From: a virus
Virus record (IMG/VR): IMGVR_UViG_3300037488_001108
Coordinates: 1 to 51,194 of that record
DNA: 51,194 nucleotides
Direction: 5' to 3' (one strand)
Part shown: positions 1 through 31,900 of the stretch, in pieces
Numbering within the stretch: the stretch's first letter is position 1
Layout: every line of letters begins with the position of its first letter
The notes under the pieces: generated by a model
The model's database searches: none
What the model was told of the DNA's origin: nothing
What the model saw: the letters and a program-made list of their open reading frames with translations, nothing else
Translations under genes and position numbers: made by a program

Positions 1-153
1 GTAAAAATCCTCCTCCCACTTTAAAAACTCCTCCACTGACTTGAAGGATGTGTGTGATTGTGCCTGAACTCCATCACAATCTTGCGACCAAACATTTATG
101 AAGGCTACTCCATCCCGAAGTATTGCCTCCTGAATTTGCTCCACGCTACACAT
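1..153 (-). CDS. Hypothetical protein, 3' part cut by window edge
   Basis: An ATG at 153 opens a frame that stays open for 51 codons to the first base of the window, so only the N-terminal part is visible. It begins MCSVEQIQEAILRDG and is rich in Glu, Gln and Trp. I do not recognise a family. The start codon overlaps the stop of the preceding minus-strand gene within ATGTGTAG, the tight coupling expected in an operon. The gene is last in the leftward operon as far as can be seen, downstream of both hammerhead ribozymes. Confidence 0.6.
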   Translation of the reverse strand, partial: MCSVEQIQEAILRDGVAFINVWSQDCDGVQAQSHTSFKSVEEFLKWEEDFY

Positions 154-292
154 TTTCAATCACGATTAAAATTGCTCTGTCCATTCTGCGGGTATCTGCC
201 ATATAGATATTCCCCATTTTTTCTAACCACTCATAAAAATCTGTGGCTCTTCTGTGCTGTTCTTTGGCTCTCGCCTTGTTTTGATTGCTCAT
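146..292 (-). CDS. Small basic hypothetical protein (48 aa)
   Basis: The protein begins MSNQNKARAKEQHRR and is basic in its first half, with a hydrophobic end (AILIVIENV). No family is recognised. I prefer the ATG at 292 to the longer frame starting at 400. The longer version would run through a complete hammerhead ribozyme (315-361) and the palindrome (365-380), whereas the shorter one starts 22 nt after the ribozyme. The 63-aa gene upstream has the same spacing to its own ribozyme. The first four residues, MSNQ, match the start of the amidoligase gene in the same operon. Confidence 0.6.
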   Translation of the reverse strand: MSNQNKARAKEQHRRATDFYEWLEKMGNIYMADTRRMDRAILIVIENV

Positions 293-314: not shown

Positions 315-361
315 CGTTTCGTTCTTTTGAACTCATCAGCAAGGACACTCATCCTTGTACG
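315..361 (-). ncRNA. Type III hammerhead ribozyme, copy B
   Basis: Read on the minus strand. Stem III 5' strand CGU is 361-359 and the cleavage nucleotide A is 358 (triplet GUA). Stem I is CAAGGA/UCCUUG (357-352 with 345-340), loop UGAGUG. Core CUGAUGA is 339-333. Stem II is GUUC/GAAC (332-329 with 324-321), loop AAAA. Core GAA is 320-318. Stem III 3' strand ACG is 317-315. All invariant hammerhead core bases are present; cleavage is predicted between 358 and 357. Stem III has only 3 bp, so activity may be weaker than copy A. The element lies between a 63-aa and a 48-aa gene, 22 nt before the latter's start. Confidence 0.86.
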
Positions 362-364
362 TGA

Positions 365-380
365 GTGTCTTTGAAGACAC
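365..380. repeat. Dispersed palindrome GTGTCTT-NN-AAGACAC, copy 1
   Basis: The sequence is GTGTCTTTGAAGACAC; the arms extend by two further pairs to 363-382. It is intergenic. In the minus-strand transcript it would form a hairpin just 5' of hammerhead copy B. Confidence 0.9.
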
Positions 381-412
381 TCCCCGCATTTAATCGCCAC
401 CCTCTCACGCTA

Positions 413-604
413 TCATCGCTTTACTTTGATTGAAGCGATTAGACAAAGCAAGCCCGCACTCCCGCAAAGGACACACATAAAAATCTCGCTGTCAACTGAA
501 TTGAATTTAATCAACTCCTGAACTTTCCCGCTTGTAAGGGCTACAGCTAAGGACAAATAAACTACCGCTAAGGCAAACGATTTTAAACAAACTTCTAATT
601 TCAT
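413..604 (-). CDS. Small membrane protein (63 aa)
   Basis: Two hydrophobic segments are visible, about residues 8-25 (FALAVVYLSLAVALTSG) and 42-59 (FMCVLCGSAGLLCLIASI), joined by a short polar stretch and followed by a basic tail KVKR. This suggests a two-pass inner-membrane protein; the role is unknown. The start codon at 604 lies 19 nt downstream of hammerhead copy A, so ribozyme cleavage would give this gene its own 5' end. Its stop is followed by the palindrome and by hammerhead copy B. A holin-like role is possible from the topology but unsupported. Confidence 0.65.
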   Translation of the reverse strand: MKLEVCLKSFALAVVYLSLAVALTSGKVQELIKFNSVDSEIFMCVLCGSAGLLCLIASIKVKR

Positions 605-623
605 AACTCATAAATTTTTGTTA

Positions 624-674
624 GCTGTTTCGCCATTTGTGGCTCATCAGTGCGGACACTCATCCGCATACAGC
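624..674 (-). ncRNA. Type III hammerhead ribozyme, copy A
   Basis: Read on the minus strand. Stem III is GCUGU (674-670) with ACAGC (628-624), 5 perfect pairs. The cleavage nucleotide A is 669 (triplet GUA). Stem I is UGCGGA/UCCGCA (668-663 with 656-651), loop UGAGUG. Core CUGAUGA is 650-644. Stem II is GCCA/UGGC (643-640 with 635-632), loop CAAA. Core GAA is 631-629. Every conserved core base and all three helices are present; self-cleavage is predicted between 669 and 668. Compared with copy B, three pairs of stem I and three of stem II differ with pairing kept. It lies between the amidoligase stop and a 63-aa gene. Confidence 0.94.
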
Positions 675-692
675 GGAGCGGTTTCCCGCTCC
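675..692 (-). other. GNRA-capped hairpin abutting hammerhead A
   Basis: On the minus strand GGAGCGG (692-686), loop GAAA (685-682) and CCGCUCC (681-675) form a 7-bp GC-rich hairpin with a GNRA tetraloop. It begins 8 nt after the amidoligase stop and ends exactly where stem III of hammerhead A begins, so the helices could stack. After cleavage it would cap the 3' end of the amidoligase mRNA fragment. No U-tract follows, so it is not a typical terminator. Confidence 0.75.
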
Positions 693-700
693 TTTGCTTG

Positions 701-1612
701 CTAAAGGTACATTGCGATGTCTTGATGAATTTCGCCCTTTACGATGAACTTTTGGAAGTGTCTCGCTAATTTCAAAATTTCCTCAGCCTTGGCTGTGTCT
801 CCGTTATACATTGACACGATGATTGGCGTGATGGTTTTCAAAAACTTTTCGTGTGTGCCTCTCGGATTGTTCACGCTGTAGTTAACCAACTCGTAAAACA
901 ATTCGTATCGTCTCATCATTTGTTTAACGCTCTCGAATTTACTCGGGATTCTAAACTCCAAACAACTACCTTTTACAAGGGCTGTTTGATATTTGTGATG
1001 CCATCCCGTACTGCTGTAGTGGTAGCCATCAGTAGAATTATATCGGCTCTCATACTCGGGCTGTAGCCTACGATTTGCCCCGCAATATGTGTTTTTCAAT
1101 CTCTTGCGAAACAAGGCTAAGATGATGCCCGCATTTTTGCGAACTAAGGCGTTCAATTCAACCCCATTTAAACCATCACAGCCTATTGTAATGTGCCCGC
1201 CACATCTTCTGTCGCTTGGGCTGTGGCTGTCATCGATGATTCGCTCCGCTTTGTACATCATATCGTAAACTTTCGTTCTCCATTGCCCCGCAGGTAACAA
1301 AGGTAAAATGTGCGTTACAGCCTCATAGCCACAACTTGAGTCCGTTTCAAACCCGCAAAACAATTCGTACTCTCTCACAGCGTTACGGCTAAGTTGATTT
1401 TTTTCAACCTCGAAGCCTATTGTAAATTTGCTCTCGTACTCTCTACCATCAAATTTGATGGCGGTTCTTTGCTCGATGGCTTTTAGCCCCGCAACATCAA
1501 CCCTATGGGCTGTTTTGTTTAAAAAATTAGGGCTTGGTTTGCTGTGGTATCCCGCAACTTGACCTCTTCTTGATTCCCCTGTAGTAGTGTAAACGATTCC
1601 TTGATTGCTCAT
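701..1612 (-). CDS. Amidoligase-like (COOH-NH2 ligase) protein
   Basis: The 303-aa protein shows motifs of the amidoligase family (glutamine-synthetase/ATP-grasp-like COOH-NH2 ligases): GFEVE at 66-70, ETDSSCGYEAVT at 89-100, CGGHITIG at 137-144 and CLEFRIPS at 217-224. These fit the family's metal/ATP-binding acidic residues, the Gly-Gly-His strand and the E-x-R strand. Known relatives are proposed to form amide or peptide bonds, for example on peptides or cell-wall material; the substrate here cannot be told. It lies mid-operon on the minus strand, with hammerhead A right after its stop, and starts with MSNQ like the small gene at 146-292. Family call is by motif only. Confidence 0.75.
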   Translation of the reverse strand: MSNQGIVYTTTGESRRGQVAGYHSKPSPNFLNKTAHRVDVAGLKAIEQRTAIKFDGREYESKFTIGFEVEKNQLSRNAVREYELFCGFETDSSCGYEAVTHILPLLPAGQWRTKVYDMMYKAERIIDDSHSPSDRRCGGHITIGCDGLNGVELNALVRKNAGIILALFRKRLKNTYCGANRRLQPEYESRYNSTDGYHYSSTGWHHKYQTALVKGSCLEFRIPSKFESVKQMMRRYELFYELVNYSVNNPRGTHEKFLKTITPIIVSMYNGDTAKAEEILKLARHFQKFIVKGEIHQDIAMYL

Positions 1613-1631: not shown

Positions 1632-1647
1632 GTGTCTTTAAAGACAC
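1632..1647. repeat. Dispersed palindrome, copy 2 (perfect)
   Basis: GTGTCTTTAAAGACAC, a perfect 16-bp palindrome in the gap between the 212-aa gene and the amidoligase gene, 20 bp upstream of the amidoligase start. Confidence 0.9.
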
Positions 1648-3552: not shown

Positions 3553-5169
3553 ATGTTAGAAAATCAAGGTTATTCTCCCAAAGATTTATGTTTTGGGGAG
3601 ATAGGTAGAAAGAAATTAGTCAGTGGCGTTACTAAAATGTCCAAGGCTGTAAAGAGTACATTGGGTCCGGGAGGAAATCCTGTGCTAATTGAATCCCCAA
3701 ACCACACACACGGTATTACTGTAACCAAAGATGGTGTAACTGTTGCCAAATCAATTGACTTATTGGACCCAAGTGAGAACCTTGCGGTTAAGATGATGAA
3801 GGAAGCTGCCGAGAGGACTGCTACCGCAGCAGGAGATGGTACAACAACTGCTATTGTCCTTACTGAGGGGTTAGTTATTAACGGTCTTGGTCTTATTAGT
3901 GAGACTATGAACCGGACAGAGGTGCTAAGAAGTATGGTGGAGATAAGCGACAAGGTGGTGGACAAGTTACGAAGACGAAGTAAGAGAGTTACAAGTACAA
4001 TGCTTACAGATGTGGCGAGTATATCGGCAAATAACGATAGGGAGATAGGGAAGATTATAGCTGAGGTGTACAAAGATGTGGGTAAGACCGGGATTGTTAC
4101 AGTTGAGAAGAGTCAGACTGATGAAACTTATGCTGAGACCACGTTAGGATTGAAATTTGACAGAGGTTACTTGAGTCCTATGTTTATAAATGACTCCAAG
4201 AAGGATGAATGTGTCTTTGAAGACACTATGGTATTGGTTGCTGATATGGAGATTACAAATATTCTTCAGATTGAGAGCGTATTGAAACCAATTGTTAGTG
4301 AAGCTAAGAAGTTGCTAATCATTTCTCCTTGTGGTCAGAACTTAATCAATAGTTTGGCGGCAAATGTTGTCAAAGGAAACATAAAAGTATGTGCAGTTCC
4401 TCCTCCGAGCTTCGGATACAAGCAGCACGAGCTGATGCAAGACATCGCAATCAGTGTTGGTGCTACATATTTCAGTGAAAAGACCGGGGATGACCTAAGT
4501 ATTATCAATTATGGAGACCTTGGGCACGCTGCTAAGGTAATTGTGAGCAAGGATAAGACCGTTATCATCAAGTCAGACCTGAAATTAGACCAAGATGCTA
4601 TCTTGGAGAGGGTAAATCAGCTATGGGATGCCCATAAAAACGCTATAAAGAAGCACGATAAGGACTTTATTTTGGAAAGAATAGCGTCATTAACGGGTGG
4701 AATTGGGGTAATTTTTGTAGGTGGTCAGACAGATTTGGAACAGAAAGAGTTATTTGATAGAGTCGATGATGCTGTTTGTGCAGTACGTTCTGCACTCGAG
4801 GAAGGGATTCTTCCGGGTGCAGGAAAGGCTCTTCTTGAAGAATCGGCAGCTTTAGAGATTGATAAGACTAAAAGCGATGAGTATAATGCAGCTGTGATGA
4901 TTTTGAAAGGAGCACTTATGGCTCCGTTCTTACAGATACTTGAGAACGCAGGACTAAAGGCATCAGACATTTACAAGAATGGAGTTGCTGAAGGTCAAGG
5001 TTACAACTTGAAGACAAGAGAGTTTGGAGACCTGATTAAGATGGGAGTAATAGACCCACTGAAAGTAACACGTTCAGCATTGCAGAATGCAGTGAGTGTA
5101 GCTGTAACAATCTTGAGCACTAACGCCATAATTACGTTAGCTCGTTCTTATGTGCAGGCTGAAGACTAA
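3553..5169 (+). CDS. groEL: Phage GroEL-type chaperonin
   Basis: The 538-aa protein is a full-length group I chaperonin. Visible signatures are TLGPGG (36-41), the nucleotide-binding GDGTTT (94-99), the apical-domain entry DRGYLSP (203-209), the distal acidic ATPase residue region RVDDAV (about 395-400) and the C-terminal equatorial VIDPLKVTRSAL. It ends LARSYVQAED and lacks the Gly-Gly-Met tail of cellular GroEL. It would fold phage proteins, with the capsid protein an obvious candidate client, together with the GroES encoded 660 bp downstream. The protein is divergent from cellular GroEL but keeps its catalytic positions. Codons 220-225 carry palindrome copy 4 without a gap relative to E. 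coli GroEL as I align it. Confidence 0.96.
   Translation: MLENQGYSPKDLCFGEIGRKKLVSGVTKMSKAVKSTLGPGGNPVLIESPNHTHGITVTKDGVTVAKSIDLLDPSENLAVKMMKEAAERTATAAGDGTTTAIVLTEGLVINGLGLISETMNRTEVLRSMVEISDKVVDKLRRRSKRVTSTMLTDVASISANNDREIGKIIAEVYKDVGKTGIVTVEKSQTDETYAETTLGLKFDRGYLSPMFINDSKKDECVFEDTMVLVADMEITNILQIESVLKPIVSEAKKLLIISPCGQNLINSLAANVVKGNIKVCAVPPPSFGYKQHELMQDIAISVGATYFSEKTGDDLSIINYGDLGHAAKVIVSKDKTVIIKSDLKLDQDAILERVNQLWDAHKNAIKKHDKDFILERIASLTGGIGVIFVGGQTDLEQKELFDRVDDAVCAVRSALEEGILPGAGKALLEESAALEIDKTKSDEYNAAVMILKGALMAPFLQILENAGLKASDIYKNGVAEGQGYNLKTREFGDLIKMGVIDPLKVTRSALQNAVSVAVTILSTNAIITLARSYVQAED
4211..4226. repeat. Dispersed palindrome, copy 4
   Basis: GTGTCTTTGAAGACAC inside groEL, read as C-V-F-E-D-T in the apical domain. 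Confidence 0.9.
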
Positions 5170-5371
5170 AAGGTTCATAAGATTTACTGTGATATGGGTG
5201 GCGTGTAACCTATCAATACCATTTTGGATGGTAGGGCACGTACACCTAACGGTAAATCTCTATGAGGACTTTATTGAGATAGTAGCATCAATGGGAATGA
5301 ATATAATAGTTGCCATTGGTTTTTGGTTAAATTGGAAAGACGAATCGAAAAATTATGATAAGAGGGATTGA
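5150..5371 (+). CDS. Small membrane protein (73 aa)
   Basis: The start overlaps the end of groEL by 20 nt. Two hydrophobic segments are visible, about residues 9-28 (FTVIWVACNLSIPFWMVG) and 42-59 (IVASMGMNIIVAIGFWLNW), ending in a charged tail (KDESKNYDKRD). A two-pass membrane protein of unknown function is likely. It overlaps the next gene by 17 nt. Confidence 0.55.
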   Translation: MCRLKTKRFIRFTVIWVACNLSIPFWMVGHVHLTVNLYEDFIEIVASMGMNIIVAIGFWLNWKDESKNYDKRD

Positions 5372-5585
5372 TTATATTACGATAGAAGTTTATGGATTAG
5401 TAGAATCCGGGAATGCGAGTTTATATGAATGTCAAGTAGCATTAGATAATAATCCAAGATTTGATAAGTTCGTAGCGGAAGCATTGAATCATAGAAGGGG
5501 AACCGGATATGTAGATGTAGCATTGTACCCTAAGGATGGGGATAAAAGAAAGTTTATACAAGACATAAAAGAGATGGGGCTATGA
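5355..5585 (+). CDS. Hypothetical protein (76 aa)
   Basis: Mixed alpha/beta composition, no recognised motif; contains NHRRGTGYVDVALYP. It overlaps both neighbours by a few nucleotides in the groEL-groES operon, supporting its reality. Function is unknown. Confidence 0.55.
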   Translation: MIRGIDYITIEVYGLVESGNASLYECQVALDNNPRFDKFVAEALNHRRGTGYVDVALYPKDGDKRKFIQDIKEMGL

Positions 5586-5824
5586 ATATACTAAGTAAAA
5601 TATTAGATGAGTACCCTGATGAAGGGTTATTAAAAATTGATGGATTTAATGATGCTATTATCGGAGTCTCCTCTGACATTAGGATTGTATATTCTATTGA
5701 TAAGATTATTGATATTCTAAAAGAAGATATGACTGAGGATGAAGCGATTGAATTTTTTGAGTTCAATATTGAATCTGCACACATTGGAGATAAAACACCT
5801 ATTTACGTAAAAATAATAAATTAA
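5582..5824 (+). CDS. Acidic hypothetical protein (80 aa)
   Basis: An acidic protein rich in Ile and Asp (IIDILKEDMTEDEAIEFFEF). The start overlaps the upstream stop (ATGA at 5582) and its stop lies 5 nt before groES. The 'TEDEAIEFFEFNI' stretch resembles C-terminal ends of small phage accessory proteins, but no function can be assigned. Confidence 0.58.
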   Translation: MNILSKILDEYPDEGLLKIDGFNDAIIGVSSDIRIVYSIDKIIDILKEDMTEDEAIEFFEFNIESAHIGDKTPIYVKIIN

Positions 5825-5829
5825 ATCAA

Positions 5830-6087
5830 ATGAAACCAATTGGAAAATACATTGTCATCAAGACTATTGATGAAGAGTTGAAAACAGAATCAGGATTGTT
5901 TCTCTCAGGAGAGGATATGAATCAGATGCGTTACAAACGTGGGTTAGTAATAGAAAGCGGCACTGATGTGCCACACATCAAAAAAGACGATGACATCTAC
6001 TACGATAAGGCTCACGGATTTACAATGATAATTGATGACAAGCAGTACACGATTATTACCGAGAGGGATGTCGTTGTTGTTTTATAA
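5830..6087 (+). CDS. groES: Phage GroES-type co-chaperonin
   Basis: The 85-aa protein has the GroES layout: KPIGKYIVIK at the N-terminus, a mobile-loop region (about 17-32) with the hydrophobic tripeptide LFL in ESGLFLSGED, the turn to RGLVIESG, the KKDDDIYY strand and the final ITERDVVVVL strand. It would cap the phage GroEL ring. It is slightly shorter than bacterial GroES (about 95 aa). The leader is AAATCAAATG. The last 32 nt overlap the 3' end of the convergent gene. Confidence 0.88.
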   Translation: MKPIGKYIVIKTIDEELKTESGLFLSGEDMNQMRYKRGLVIESGTDVPHIKKDDDIYYDKAHGFTMIIDDKQYTIITERDVVVVL

Positions 6088-24737: not shown

Positions 24738-26168
24738 ATGGCAAGTGCATTATTAGCAAATCCTACTTATCAACTACAGCCAAGTGCTGAACAAGTAGCA
24801 TTACAGACCAACTATATTACCAACTTTAACTTTTTGAATCAGTATCTTCCTGATACTTACGAAAAAGAATTTGAGCGTTATGGTAATAGAACCATCGCAT
24901 CATTCTTGAGAATGGTAGGTGCAGAGATGCCTTCTAATTCTGACCAAATCAAATGGGCAGAACAAGGTCGTCTTCACATTAAATACACGAACATCACTTC
25001 AAATGCAGCAATTAACGCTAACACAGCAACTTTCACAGTAGCTGATACAGGTGTTACTTACATCGCAATTAGAGTAAATCAAACTGTGATGATTCAGAAC
25101 AACACTACAGGTGTTTTCAACAAAGCAATCGTTACTGCGGTTCCTTCTGCAACTACTTTTACAGTAGCTTACTATGAAACAACAGGACAAGCATTTGCTG
25201 TATCTACTCAATGTACTGTATTCATTTACGGTTCAGAGTTCAAAAAAGGAACTAACGGAATGGTTGGTTCTTTAGAAGCAGAGGATGAAATCTACTCTAA
25301 CAAGCCTATTATCTTAAAAGATAAATATGCTGTTAACGGGTCTGATATGGCTCAAATCGGATGGGTTGAAGTTACTACTGAGAATGGTGCGACAGGTTAC
25401 TTGTGGTATTTGAAATCAGAGCACGAAACTCGTTTACGTTTTGAAGACTACATCGAAACTGCAATGATTGAAGCGGTTCCTGCTCAAACAGGTTCAGGTG
25501 CTTCTACTTACCTTGGTGGTACAGGTCAAGGTGGTTCTGAAGGTATCTTCTACGTTGTAAACAACAGAGGAAACGTATGGGGTGGTGGTACACCAACTAC
25601 TTTACCTGATTGGGATACAATCGTTTCTCGTTTGGACAAACAAGGAGCTATTGAAGAAAACGTGATATTCGTTAACCGTGGATTGTCTTTTGACATCGAC
25701 AATATGTTAGCTACATTGAACGGTTATAACGGAGCAGCTGTAGGTCAAGCAGCATCATTCGGTTTATTCGATAATGATGTTGATATGGCGTTGAACTTAG
25801 GTTTCACAGGATTCCGTAGAGGTTACGATTTCTACAAATCTGATTGGAAATACCTAAACGACCCAACTATGAGAGGTGGATTGAACAATGCCGCTGCAAC
25901 AGCAACAGGTACAATTACAGGTCTTATGGTTCCTGCCGGTTCTACTTCAGTGTATGACCAAATTATGGGTAAAAACGCTAAGAGACCTTTCTTACACGTT
26001 AGATACCGTGCTTCAGAAGCTGAAGACCGTAGATACAAAACGTGGATTACAGGTTCTGCCGGTGGTGCTCAAACATCTGACTTAGATGCAATGGAGGTTA
26101 ACTTCTTGTCTGAAAGATGTGTATGTACTTTAGGTGCGAACAACTTCGTATTATTCCGTTTCGGATAA
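24738..26168 (+). CDS. Major capsid protein (476 aa)
   Basis: Starts MASALLANPTYQLQPSAEQ, has GAEMPSNSDQIKWAEQGR and an internal beta-barrel-like region (about 80-165). Its position after scaffold, length and soluble beta/alpha mix fit an HK97-fold capsid protein of the crAss-like/flavophage type. Codon use is unusually GC-ending (ACTTAC, TACATC) compared with its neighbours, as expected of a highly expressed gene. A terminator follows it. Confidence 0.82.
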   Translation: MASALLANPTYQLQPSAEQVALQTNYITNFNFLNQYLPDTYEKEFERYGNRTIASFLRMVGAEMPSNSDQIKWAEQGRLHIKYTNITSNAAINANTATFTVADTGVTYIAIRVNQTVMIQNNTTGVFNKAIVTAVPSATTFTVAYYETTGQAFAVSTQCTVFIYGSEFKKGTNGMVGSLEAEDEIYSNKPIILKDKYAVNGSDMAQIGWVEVTTENGATGYLWYLKSEHETRLRFEDYIETAMIEAVPAQTGSGASTYLGGTGQGGSEGIFYVVNNRGNVWGGGTPTTLPDWDTIVSRLDKQGAIEENVIFVNRGLSFDIDNMLATLNGYNGAAVGQAASFGLFDNDVDMALNLGFTGFRRGYDFYKSDWKYLNDPTMRGGLNNAAATATGTITGLMVPAGSTSVYDQIMGKNAKRPFLHVRYRASEAEDRRYKTWITGSAGGAQTSDLDAMEVNFLSERCVCTLGANNFVLFRFG

Positions 26169-26181
26169 TATATACTAAAAC

Positions 26182-26212
26182 GGGGAGTGTCTTTAAAGAC
26201 ACTCTCCTTTTT
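26182..26212 (+). terminator. Terminator built from palindrome copy 6
   Basis: GGGG before and CTCC after the palindrome extend its arms (with one G-U pair) to a long stem, followed by TTTTTAT. It lies 13 nt after the capsid stop. Confidence 0.72.
26187..26202. repeat. Dispersed palindrome, copy 6 (perfect)
   Basis: GTGTCTTTAAAGACAC, forming the core of the hairpin after the capsid gene. Confidence 0.9.
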
Positions 26213-28951: not shown

Positions 28952-31900
28952 ATGGCAAACGTAACAAGAAATTTTTTAGCGGGAAGAATGAACAAAGTCG
29001 TTGACCAACGATTGCTTCCTGATGGCGAATATGTTGATGCTATGAATGTTAGAATGGGTTCAACAGAGATGGCTGAAGTAGGGGTTATTACTAATACAAA
29101 AGGTAATTTATTTTTAACCTCATTAGCCTATATTAACGGAACGCCATTAAGTACTCAAGCAAGATGTATCGGAGCTATACAAGATAGTGCTAATGAAACA
29201 ATATATTGGTTTGTACACGACCCTGCATTCCCTGTTGGAGCTACAGGTAAACTTGATTTAATTGTGTCTTTCAATGTACTAAACAATACATTGACCTATC
29301 ACGTTATTAGTATAAATGATGGTGGAGGTATAAATACTACATTGAATTTTAATCCTACTTATCTTATTACAGGAGTAAATTTAATTGAAAATTTGATATT
29401 TTTTACAGATGATTATAATGCTCCAAGATTTATAAATATAAACCCTCCAACAAATAGATACCCTAATCCTATTGCTAATATTGACCAAATTAGTGCTGAG
29501 TCTTTACTTGTAATAAAAAAACCACCAACGGAGTCTCCAACTGTAACTCCTGTTATAACAAGTGGTCAAGAAAACTTTTTAGAAACAAGATTTATATGTT
29601 TTGCTTATAGATATAAATATGTTGATGGAGAATATTCTGCTACTTCTCAATGGTCAGAACCTGCATTTGTACCTCAACCTTTTCAGTTTAGCAGTAACAG
29701 TATGCTGAATGAAGGTATGGTAAATTCTTGTAATACTGCAATAATTGAATATAACTCAGGAGGACCTCTTGTAGTTGAAGTAGATTTGTTATTTAAAGAA
29801 TCAAATAAAAATATAATTAAAATTATTGAAAAACTTAATAAGGCAGAGGATTTAGGAGGTGTGAATAATCAAGTTTTACAATATTCATTCAATAATAGTA
29901 AAATATTTACAGTATTAAATGAAGCTGAAATTTTAAGACTTTACGACAATGTTCCTCGTTATGCTAAGGCTCAAACAATAATGGGCAATAGATTAATGTA
30001 TGGTAATTATGTGGAAGGGTATGATTTAATTGATAAAAATGGTCAGCCTACTAAGTTTGAATACTTAACACAATTATTATCTGAATCGATAGGACAGACT
30101 TCTCTTGTTGACGCTACAGGTAATGGCGTTTATAACATAGACCCAACATCAACAGGAGAAGTTATTGCTTCTTCTATTGTAACATTTAATTTAGCAGGAA
30201 TAACTTTATCAGAAGGCTCTTCTATAACTCTAAATATGACAATAGTACATTCGGATTTTACAGGAGCACTTCCTTTTCCTGCCGAAACAACTGATTTTAT
30301 AGATTTAGATTTTATATTTACTTTAACAACAAGCTACCCATCTGTATATGCATTGGCTACAAGCACTGAATTTCAACAAGCTATAGGAACAATAGCTAAT
30401 ATAAAACCTGTGTATAGTGCTACTCCGGGGGCTGAAACTTCTTGTGATGGTACTACGTTTACTGACCAATTAAACTGTTTGTTGCCTAACAACTTAGATG
30501 CTCTTATAAAATATGGGAGTGGTATAAATGCTATATTACAACCAATAAAAATAATTTCAACTCCTGCAAGTACTATAATTGGATTACAACTTATTGCTAT
30601 GGAGTATGTTAACTCTGTAACAACACCTACTCAAAGAGTTTACGAATATTATAACTTTACATTTGCAAGAGCTATATTTCAAGAAATATCAAACCCTTCA
30701 AGTCTGCATAGCAATAGAGGTTATGAAGTTGGTATTGTATATATGGATGAATTTAATCGTTCAACTACAGCTTTAGTAAGTCTTAATAATACAGTATTTG
30801 TACCTTGTGGATATTCTGCAAGTAAAAATACAATTCAAATTACAATACCTAAAGAACAAAGAGCTCCTAAATGGGCTAAAAGGTATAAGTTTGTAATAAA
30901 ACCTGATGCAGAAAATTACGAAACAATATATGCAAATATATTTTTTACTGACCCTGATTCAAATGATGTTTATTTTCTTCTTGAAGGAGATAATATGCGA
31001 AAAGTTGAAGATGGAGACAGACTAATTGTTAAGGCAGATACCTCAGGTCCTACTACAAATTGTACATACGCTACAGTTCTTGAAAAAAATGCTCAAGCAG
31101 CTGATTTTATTATTCCAAAAGAAGGAACGGAAGCACTTGCAGGTCTTTATATGAAAATGAATCCAAATTCTTTTAATCTTGTAGTTGACCCCGATGCAAT
31201 TATAAATCCGGGAATGCGTTCTGCTTTTACAGGTATTTCAAATCGAACTAATTGTGCGGTAATACAATATCCTATGAACCTTTTACGTGCAGCGGGATAT
31301 GACCCTTCAAATCCAAGTTGGACTTATGAAGATTATACCGTTCCTTCCGGTAGTAGAATAAAAATTTACGCAAAAGGAAATCGTTCAGGAGGTAGTGGTG
31401 GTTGTGAATGTAATGGAACTTTATGGGAAGTAACTTTTACATCATCAAGAGATTATGATAATATGTATGATTGGTGGAACGGAGATAACGTATCAGCTGT
31501 ATTAGATAATCCTAATATTTCACAATGTGGAGGGGCAACTCTTGTATATGAAACAGGATTAGGACAACCAACCTGTAATTTTAATATACAAAAATTTAGA
31601 TTTAATAGAGATGTTACTACTAACAGGCTTTGGCTTAATTATAGTGCCGGATGGGCTTGTTCAGGAGTAGGTGCTAACTATAGAAGATACTTTATAGACC
31701 TTGAGGTTACAGTATTTAGAGCTTTAAATACTATTATATGGGAAACACAACCTCAAGATTCTTTACCTGATGTATTCTTTGAAAATAATTTATCATTCGC
31801 TATTGATGTCGATGGTAATCACGCAGGTAATGTTCAAAATCAAAATATTGCAACAGGAACTCCTGCTATAATAGATACAGGTTTTTATAATTGCTATGCT

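Follow-up and report, generated by a model that had tools for sequence, protein, structure and literature searches.

Two hairpin-coupled hammerhead ribozymes at consecutive gene junctions of a Bacteroidota phage suggest a cassette for processing operon messages

Introduction

What does a hammerhead ribozyme (HHR) do between two genes of a phage? The question is raised by a viral genome fragment of 51,194 nt (IMG/VR record IMGVR_UViG_3300037488_001108; the whole stretch analysed is referred to here as the window), in which such a ribozyme lies on the minus strand just after the stop codon of an amidoligase-like gene. What hammerheads do in bacteria and phages has been described as unknown (PMC6155905; PMC10085705). 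In the available text of Perreault et al., 2011, clusters of hammerheads in phage DNA were found on either side of single genes or of short blocks of genes, and the processing of long transcripts was proposed, with the function of these gene-flanking ribozymes left open (PMC3088659). A preliminary description of the window had presented the ribozyme as a complete type III hammerhead that would split an operon mRNA, and had called such a site unusual for a phage of Bacteroidota.

Results

Two type III hammerheads flank a 63-aa gene

The ribozyme noticed first, HHR1, is built of three helices on the minus strand. Stem III pairs GCUGU (674–670) with ACAGC (628–624), stem I (668–651) comprises six Watson-Crick pairs and a closing U·G with the loop GAGU, and stem II (643–632) pairs GCCA with UGGC around the loop CAAA. 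The core is made up of CUGAUGA (650–644) and GAA (631–629), and residue H17 is A669, which places the predicted cut at 669|668; self-cleavage of HHR1 is a prediction from sequence. A second hammerhead, HHR2, is found on the same strand, and the two flank a 63-aa gene with their predicted cuts (358|357 in HHR2) 311 nt apart (Table 1). Both possess the core CUGANGA plus GAA, an A15.1-U16.1 pair, an H (not G) at position 17, and three helices of which stem III is open and stems I and II are closed by loops.

Table 1. Features of the two ribozyme junctions and of the dispersed palindrome (positions in the window).
Feature	Position	Strand	Remarks
HHR1, type III hammerhead	624..674	minus	predicted cut A669/U668; identified by RF00008, model R2 and anatomy
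HHR2, type III hammerhead	315..361	minus	short stem III (3 bp); predicted cut A358/C357; identified by RF00008, model R2 and anatomy
Hairpin GGAGCGG-GAAA-CCGCUCC	675..692	minus	7 bp, GC-rich, contiguous with HHR1 stem III
Hairpin GAGUGUCU-UCAA-AGACACUC	363..382	minus	8 bp, one base upstream of HHR2 stem III
303-aa upstream gene, amidoligase-like fold	701..1612	minus	stop codon 26 nt before HHR1
63-aa gene between HHR1 and HHR2	413..604	minus	hydrophobic product; start codon 19 nt after HHR1
48-aa downstream gene	146..292	minus	start codon 22 nt after HHR2
Palindrome GTGTCTTTAAAGACAC	1632..1647	.	junction before the amidoligase gene, without a hammerhead in the window
Copies of GTGTCTTYRAAGACAC	365, 1632, 2546, 4211, 19092, 26187, 43318, 43492, 50868		within and between genes

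An Infernal search with the Rfam models, suggested earlier as a check, gave significant RF00008 matches to HHR1 (43.5 bits, E = 2.8e-6) and HHR2 (31.6 bits, E = 0.0064) in a cmscan of the whole window, but both lie under the gathering score of 48.5. At that threshold no RF00008 match was obtained across the window, because phage hammerheads score under the cut-off; among 44 related records, the gathering score was reached in two. An independent covariance model derived from 30 phage hammerheads (R2), with no window sequence in its training set, scored HHR1 at 67.8 bits (E = 1e-19) and HHR2 at 63.6 bits (E = 2.6e-18). A strict type III finder that demands both the sequence pattern and the pairing returned two matches in the window and none in 100 dinucleotide shuffles. 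Together, anatomy, cmscan, model R2 and shuffles confirm to the base the earlier identification of a complete type III hammerhead with all core bases at 674–624. That description was correct for HHR1 and incomplete for the locus, as it had overlooked both the second hammerhead at 361–315 and a hairpin abutting each ribozyme. The two elements resemble the type III hammerhead of Rfam RF00008 in core, helices and open stem III, and they differ from it in a short stem III (3–5 bp) that abuts an external hairpin and in a score below the gathering cut-off.

Because stem III of HHR2 is only 3 bp long and an alternative fold is better by 4.8 kcal/mol, cleavage of HHR2 may be slow, and its predicted activity is less certain than that of HHR1. 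No third hammerhead was found in the window; a candidate at 30890 (15 bits, E = 0.03), with a broken core and inside a coding region, was taken as a chance match.

A hairpin abuts each ribozyme

The minimum free energy structure of positions 696–620 consists of exactly the upstream hairpin and HHR1 (−34.8 kcal/mol), and this hairpin carries a compensatory change in a relative (GGGGCGG/CCGCCCC in L273). The hairpin of HHR2 is built on a copy of a dispersed palindrome (365–380), described below. Folding of the 40 nt that would end at the predicted cut gives −18.0 kcal/mol for HHR1 and −14.7 kcal/mol for HHR2. We rejected the idea that these hairpins are intrinsic terminators, as each is followed, in the direction of transcription, by a hammerhead and not by a U tract; a terminator scan reported neither of them on the minus strand. 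Elsewhere in the window, a stretch after a structural protein gene (24738–26168) looks like an intrinsic terminator: on the plus strand, 26182–26210 contains the palindrome with extra G-C pairs, followed by a T run.

Genes around the two ribozymes

The 303-aa protein encoded upstream of HHR1, previously labeled an amidoligase, has no Pfam match, but the label is supported by its predicted fold. Its AlphaFold model has a pLDDT of 88, and Foldseek retrieved, with low TM-scores, phage proteins annotated as amidoligases (best such E = 6e-7) and glutamine synthetases (E = 1e-4), so that an amidoligase or glutamine-synthetase-like fold is supported at the level of the model. The gap of 19 nt between HHR1 and the ATG of the 63-aa gene (604) is as claimed. 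The product of this gene is probably a membrane protein, and homologues were found in only four IMG/VR records. Searches of Pfam and PHROGs with the small flanking genes gave no match. An alternative ORF of 84 aa (GTG at 400) would span HHR2; in relatives the start codon lies after the hammerhead. From the gene order and the short gaps, we infer that the operon would be transcribed as one RNA.

The attribution to a Bacteroidota phage agrees with the portal protein, whose best named relatives belong to Flavobacterium, Cellulophaga and Maribacter phages. The window also encodes a GroEL-like protein (538 aa) near a small GroES-like protein (85 aa) at 3553–6087. The phage genome looks incomplete, since the right end of the linear contig (50606–51194, minus strand) contains no more of a helicase-like gene than its C-terminal part. 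Further hammerheads may lie in the missing part; in one relative (L272), this operon contains four.

The hammerhead is conserved at the amidoligase junction

The view of this site as an unusual, isolated case was not borne out. Besides the two hammerheads in the window, RF00008 matches occur in 38 of 44 related records, most of which carry one to four hammerheads, and the available text of the 2011 report provides a published precedent (PMC3088659). We fetched amidoligase-junction loci solely by homology to the 303-aa upstream protein (n = 43). An intact hammerhead lies 21–96 nt past the amidoligase-gene stop codon in 36 of these loci, down to 40% protein identity, and its hairpin is kept while the hairpin sequence varies by locus. 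The hammerhead at this junction is not strictly essential, because seven of the 43 relatives are without it, three of them retaining a remnant of the core.

Beyond these loci, a pattern combining stem-loop I with the core was found in at least 12 further viral contigs, and a looser core pattern in at least 119 stretches in IMG/VR and at least 118 in GTDB genomes. The looser pattern does not demand pairing, and among the IMG/VR matches listed, 113 of the 114 distinct raw viral matches that it selected adopt a hammerhead fold, 98 of them that of type III and 15 that of type I. In an alignment of 46 type III elements, 98.4% of cells are paired and two-sided changes are present in 12 of 16 pairs. 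The covariation score was 0.842, compared with 0.226 for shuffled alignments (0/500) and 0.07–0.12 when the pairing partners were slid, in which case 30–43% of cells were paired. As for the bases of loops I and II that would make a putative tertiary contact, in alignment A1 U13 and A37–A39 are invariant and G14, G16 and U17 nearly so, a conservation partly imposed by the search pattern.

Among named phages, BLASTN of the composite element gave one weak, insignificant match only. The cultured Flavobacterium phage elemo possesses one hammerhead (NC_055855.1, 12321–12377; core CUGAAGA), located directly before gp27 and between the divergent genes gp26 and gp27, with no obvious adjacent hairpin. 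Of the other named phages that are nearest to the window, MW202828 and Maribacter phage Panino, neither was found to contain a hammerhead.

Placement and hairpin coupling extend across phage hammerheads

To describe placement more widely, we used 149 non-redundant phage type III hammerheads among the matches listed. The finder demands pairing, so that the helices in this sample cannot be counted as independent evidence; fairer tests are the pass rate of the raw pattern and the protein-anchored amidoligase loci given above. Among the matches listed, the start codon of an ORF lies within 150 nt downstream in 143 of the 149 (median 23 nt; 42 in the antisense control), and an ORF stop within 90 nt upstream in 129 (median 32; 33 in the control). 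Type I hammerheads of related phages, again among the matches listed, have a start codon downstream in 66 of 71 cases, with a median distance of 19 nt. Because of this placement of start and stop codons, phage hammerheads are, on the evidence of their sequence context, intercistronic. The earlier proposal of an intercistronic processing site is well supported both by this position, with a stop codon before and a start codon after almost every phage hammerhead, and by conservation.

The hairpin follows a similar rule. Among the matches listed, 77% of the 149 type III hammerheads are preceded by a perfect hairpin of 6 bp or more that ends no farther than 3 nt from stem III, compared with 10% for flanking sequence and 9% for shuffles; about a quarter of them are without a perfect adjacent hairpin. 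In type I hammerheads, the closed stem III itself is the hairpin. In type III, the 3'-terminal 40 nt of the predicted upstream product fold with a median energy of −16.5 kcal/mol, and in type I with one of −14.9 kcal/mol, whereas nearby 40-mers reach −4.9 and −4.8 kcal/mol, respectively. Because both types end the predicted upstream product in a strong fold, these two permuted topologies converge on a hairpin-capped upstream RNA, which we regard as the strongest pointer to function.

Several phage contigs carry arrays of type I hammerheads, many directly before a gene (eight in L104, six in L110, and L142). Type III hammerheads were also observed in many bacterial MAG contigs (L151–L268), mostly of Patescibacteria (CPR) and often two or three per contig (e.g. 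L188, L191, L192, L200, L224, L225). These lie before ordinary genes and, among the matches listed, have an adjacent hairpin in 42% vs 7–15%; the ribozyme is often followed, at a distance of about 3 nt, by a boxA-like GTTCTTTGA (GTTCTTT in 23 of 106, compared with 0 in controls). A literature search for Patescibacteria together with the hammerhead ribozyme returned no paper.

A dispersed palindrome is part of some hairpins

The 16-bp palindrome GTGTCTTYRAAGACAC occurs in nine copies in the window, against 0.57 expected, both within and between genes. Of the 32 records examined, 26 contain 3–13 copies, reversed-pattern controls contain none, and no copies were found in elemo, Panino or MW202828. 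Copies at hammerheads never have TG as their transcribed center and are lengthened by a mean of 4.1 flanking pairs, compared with a mean of 0.5 additional pairs at 169 other sites, many of them inside genes. We read GTGTCTTYRAAGACAC as a DNA site co-opted into an RNA hairpin at hammerhead junctions; it is possibly a candidate site for a phage DNA-binding protein. Two distant relatives, L309 and L310 (G046 and G047), have a different palindrome, GTCTGTTNNAACAGAC, in 15–16 copies each and also within hammerhead hairpins; which palindrome is used differs between clades.

Ahead of the 303-aa gene, the palindrome stands bare in 17 records, whereas three have a hairpin with a hammerhead at this junction, which is found there in two independent lineages of relatives; elements have thus been gained or lost in the course of time. 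In another relative (L291, 2827–2886), the usual palindrome serves as the closed stem III of a type I hammerhead, located at a junction that in relatives contains the palindrome alone. Such variable occupancy, together with the dispersed nature of the repeats, is what would be expected if the hammerheads were neutral or selfish modules spread by recombination at palindromes, with no role in expression. We consider this unlikely, as the catalytic core is intact and the helices covary, placement between stop and start is strict, the hairpin is coupled to the ribozyme also in phages that lack GTGTCTTYRAAGACAC, and a hammerhead persists at one junction across roughly 40–90% protein identity.

Discussion

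We favor the reading that the window contains two composite cis-acting RNA elements that cut the minus-strand operon message into separate, protected mRNAs, and on balance we think it probable. The repeated unit would be hairpin, type III hammerhead, leader of about 20 nt and start codon, present in two copies at consecutive junctions. It is established chemistry that a hammerhead generates a 2',3'-cyclic phosphate on one side of its cut and a 5'-OH on the other. Each ribozyme would fold behind the passing RNA polymerase and sever its own strand at the boundary of stems III and I. The cyclic phosphate at the 3' end of the upstream mRNA would then be preceded by a strong hairpin, which should stop exonucleases working 3' to 5', and the downstream mRNA would begin at a 5'-OH, with the stem I hairpin and then its own start site following. 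In this way a polycistronic message would become separate protected mRNAs, with the 63-aa gene released on a 311-nt RNA. While anatomy, covariation, placement, hairpin coupling and same-junction conservation can be read directly from sequence, we infer that cleavage is co-transcriptional in the infected cell, that the hairpin protects the upstream mRNA, that the downstream mRNA is released and that the phage benefits.

That the start codon follows so closely, at about 23 nt, could instead mean that the selected effect is downstream, with cleavage freeing the next start site and the hairpin merely aiding folding of the ribozyme. This seems improbable to us. Type I hammerheads need no helper hairpin, yet they end the upstream product in a strong one, and at the amidoligase junction the hammerhead is conserved whereas the downstream gene varies between relatives, a comparison that is suggestive only, as the loci were chosen by their upstream gene. 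About as improbable, finally, is the release and circularization of the 311-nt RNA with the 63-aa gene by the tandem hammerheads in the manner of retrozymes or viroid-like RNAs: two ribozymes of the same strand and type do flank a short unit, their spacing is kept in the close relative L004 (309 nt), and a hybrid stem III is possible in 35 of 57 neighboring phage hammerhead pairs, a pair-wide test that is not discriminating, but self-ligation is incompatible with the window, in which the 5' strand of HHR2 stem III and the 3' strand of HHR1 stem III make only 2 bp, many records have single or widely spaced hammerheads, and the tandem prophage arrays that cleaved in vitro, and for one set in E. 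coli, gave no circular product in the available text of that study (PMC3088659).

Intercistronic processing, the reading we prefer, has partial parallels in known systems. In its support, tandem hammerheads from other prophages were shown by Perreault et al. to cleave in vitro and, for one set, in E. coli. As in those prophage clusters, at least two hammerheads flank a gene in phage DNA, here HHR1 and HHR2 around the 63-aa gene; the fused hairpin, the fixed distance to the start codon and the hammerhead at an orthologous junction are not mentioned in the available text of that paper, whose cases are mostly prophages near integrases, whereas the window belongs to a clade related to Flavobacterium podoviruses (PMC3088659). 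In a search of open-licence papers, we found neither the hairpin rule nor an orthologous hammerhead junction described before. In the early transcript of T7, intergenic RNase III sites cut polycistronic RNA into mono- and dicistronic mRNAs (PMC4858673). This would be a functional parallel for processing between genes of a phage message, not a relative: the predicted cutter in the window is encoded in the RNA, no host enzyme would be needed, and the cyclic phosphate and 5'-OH ends differ. The theta (HDV-like) ribozymes of gut phages are likewise self-cleaving and are tied to tRNA-based recoding (PMC10879173). Their fold differs from that of the hammerhead, and since no tRNA was found in the window, a tRNA or theta-ribozyme setting was rejected.

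The ribozyme is therefore of a known kind and its use in processing had already been suggested, while the novelty appears to lie in the composite element and in its conservation; the case is less unusual than first claimed, yet more interesting for the features then overlooked. The resulting proposal is specific and testable: the ribozyme would make a hairpin-protected 3' end for the preceding gene and free the next mRNA. With a hammerhead in the cultured phage elemo, a phage-host pair is already available in which some of it, at least, can be tested. Whether hairpin plus hammerhead is more generally a protein-free device by which phages form mRNA 3' ends and separate operon messages, with type I and type III as interchangeable versions, is a proposition to which we give even weight for and against. 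Ribozyme insulators are in use in synthetic biology, and such a device would be a natural precedent for them. If true, this general reading would answer what phage and bacterial hammerheads are for.
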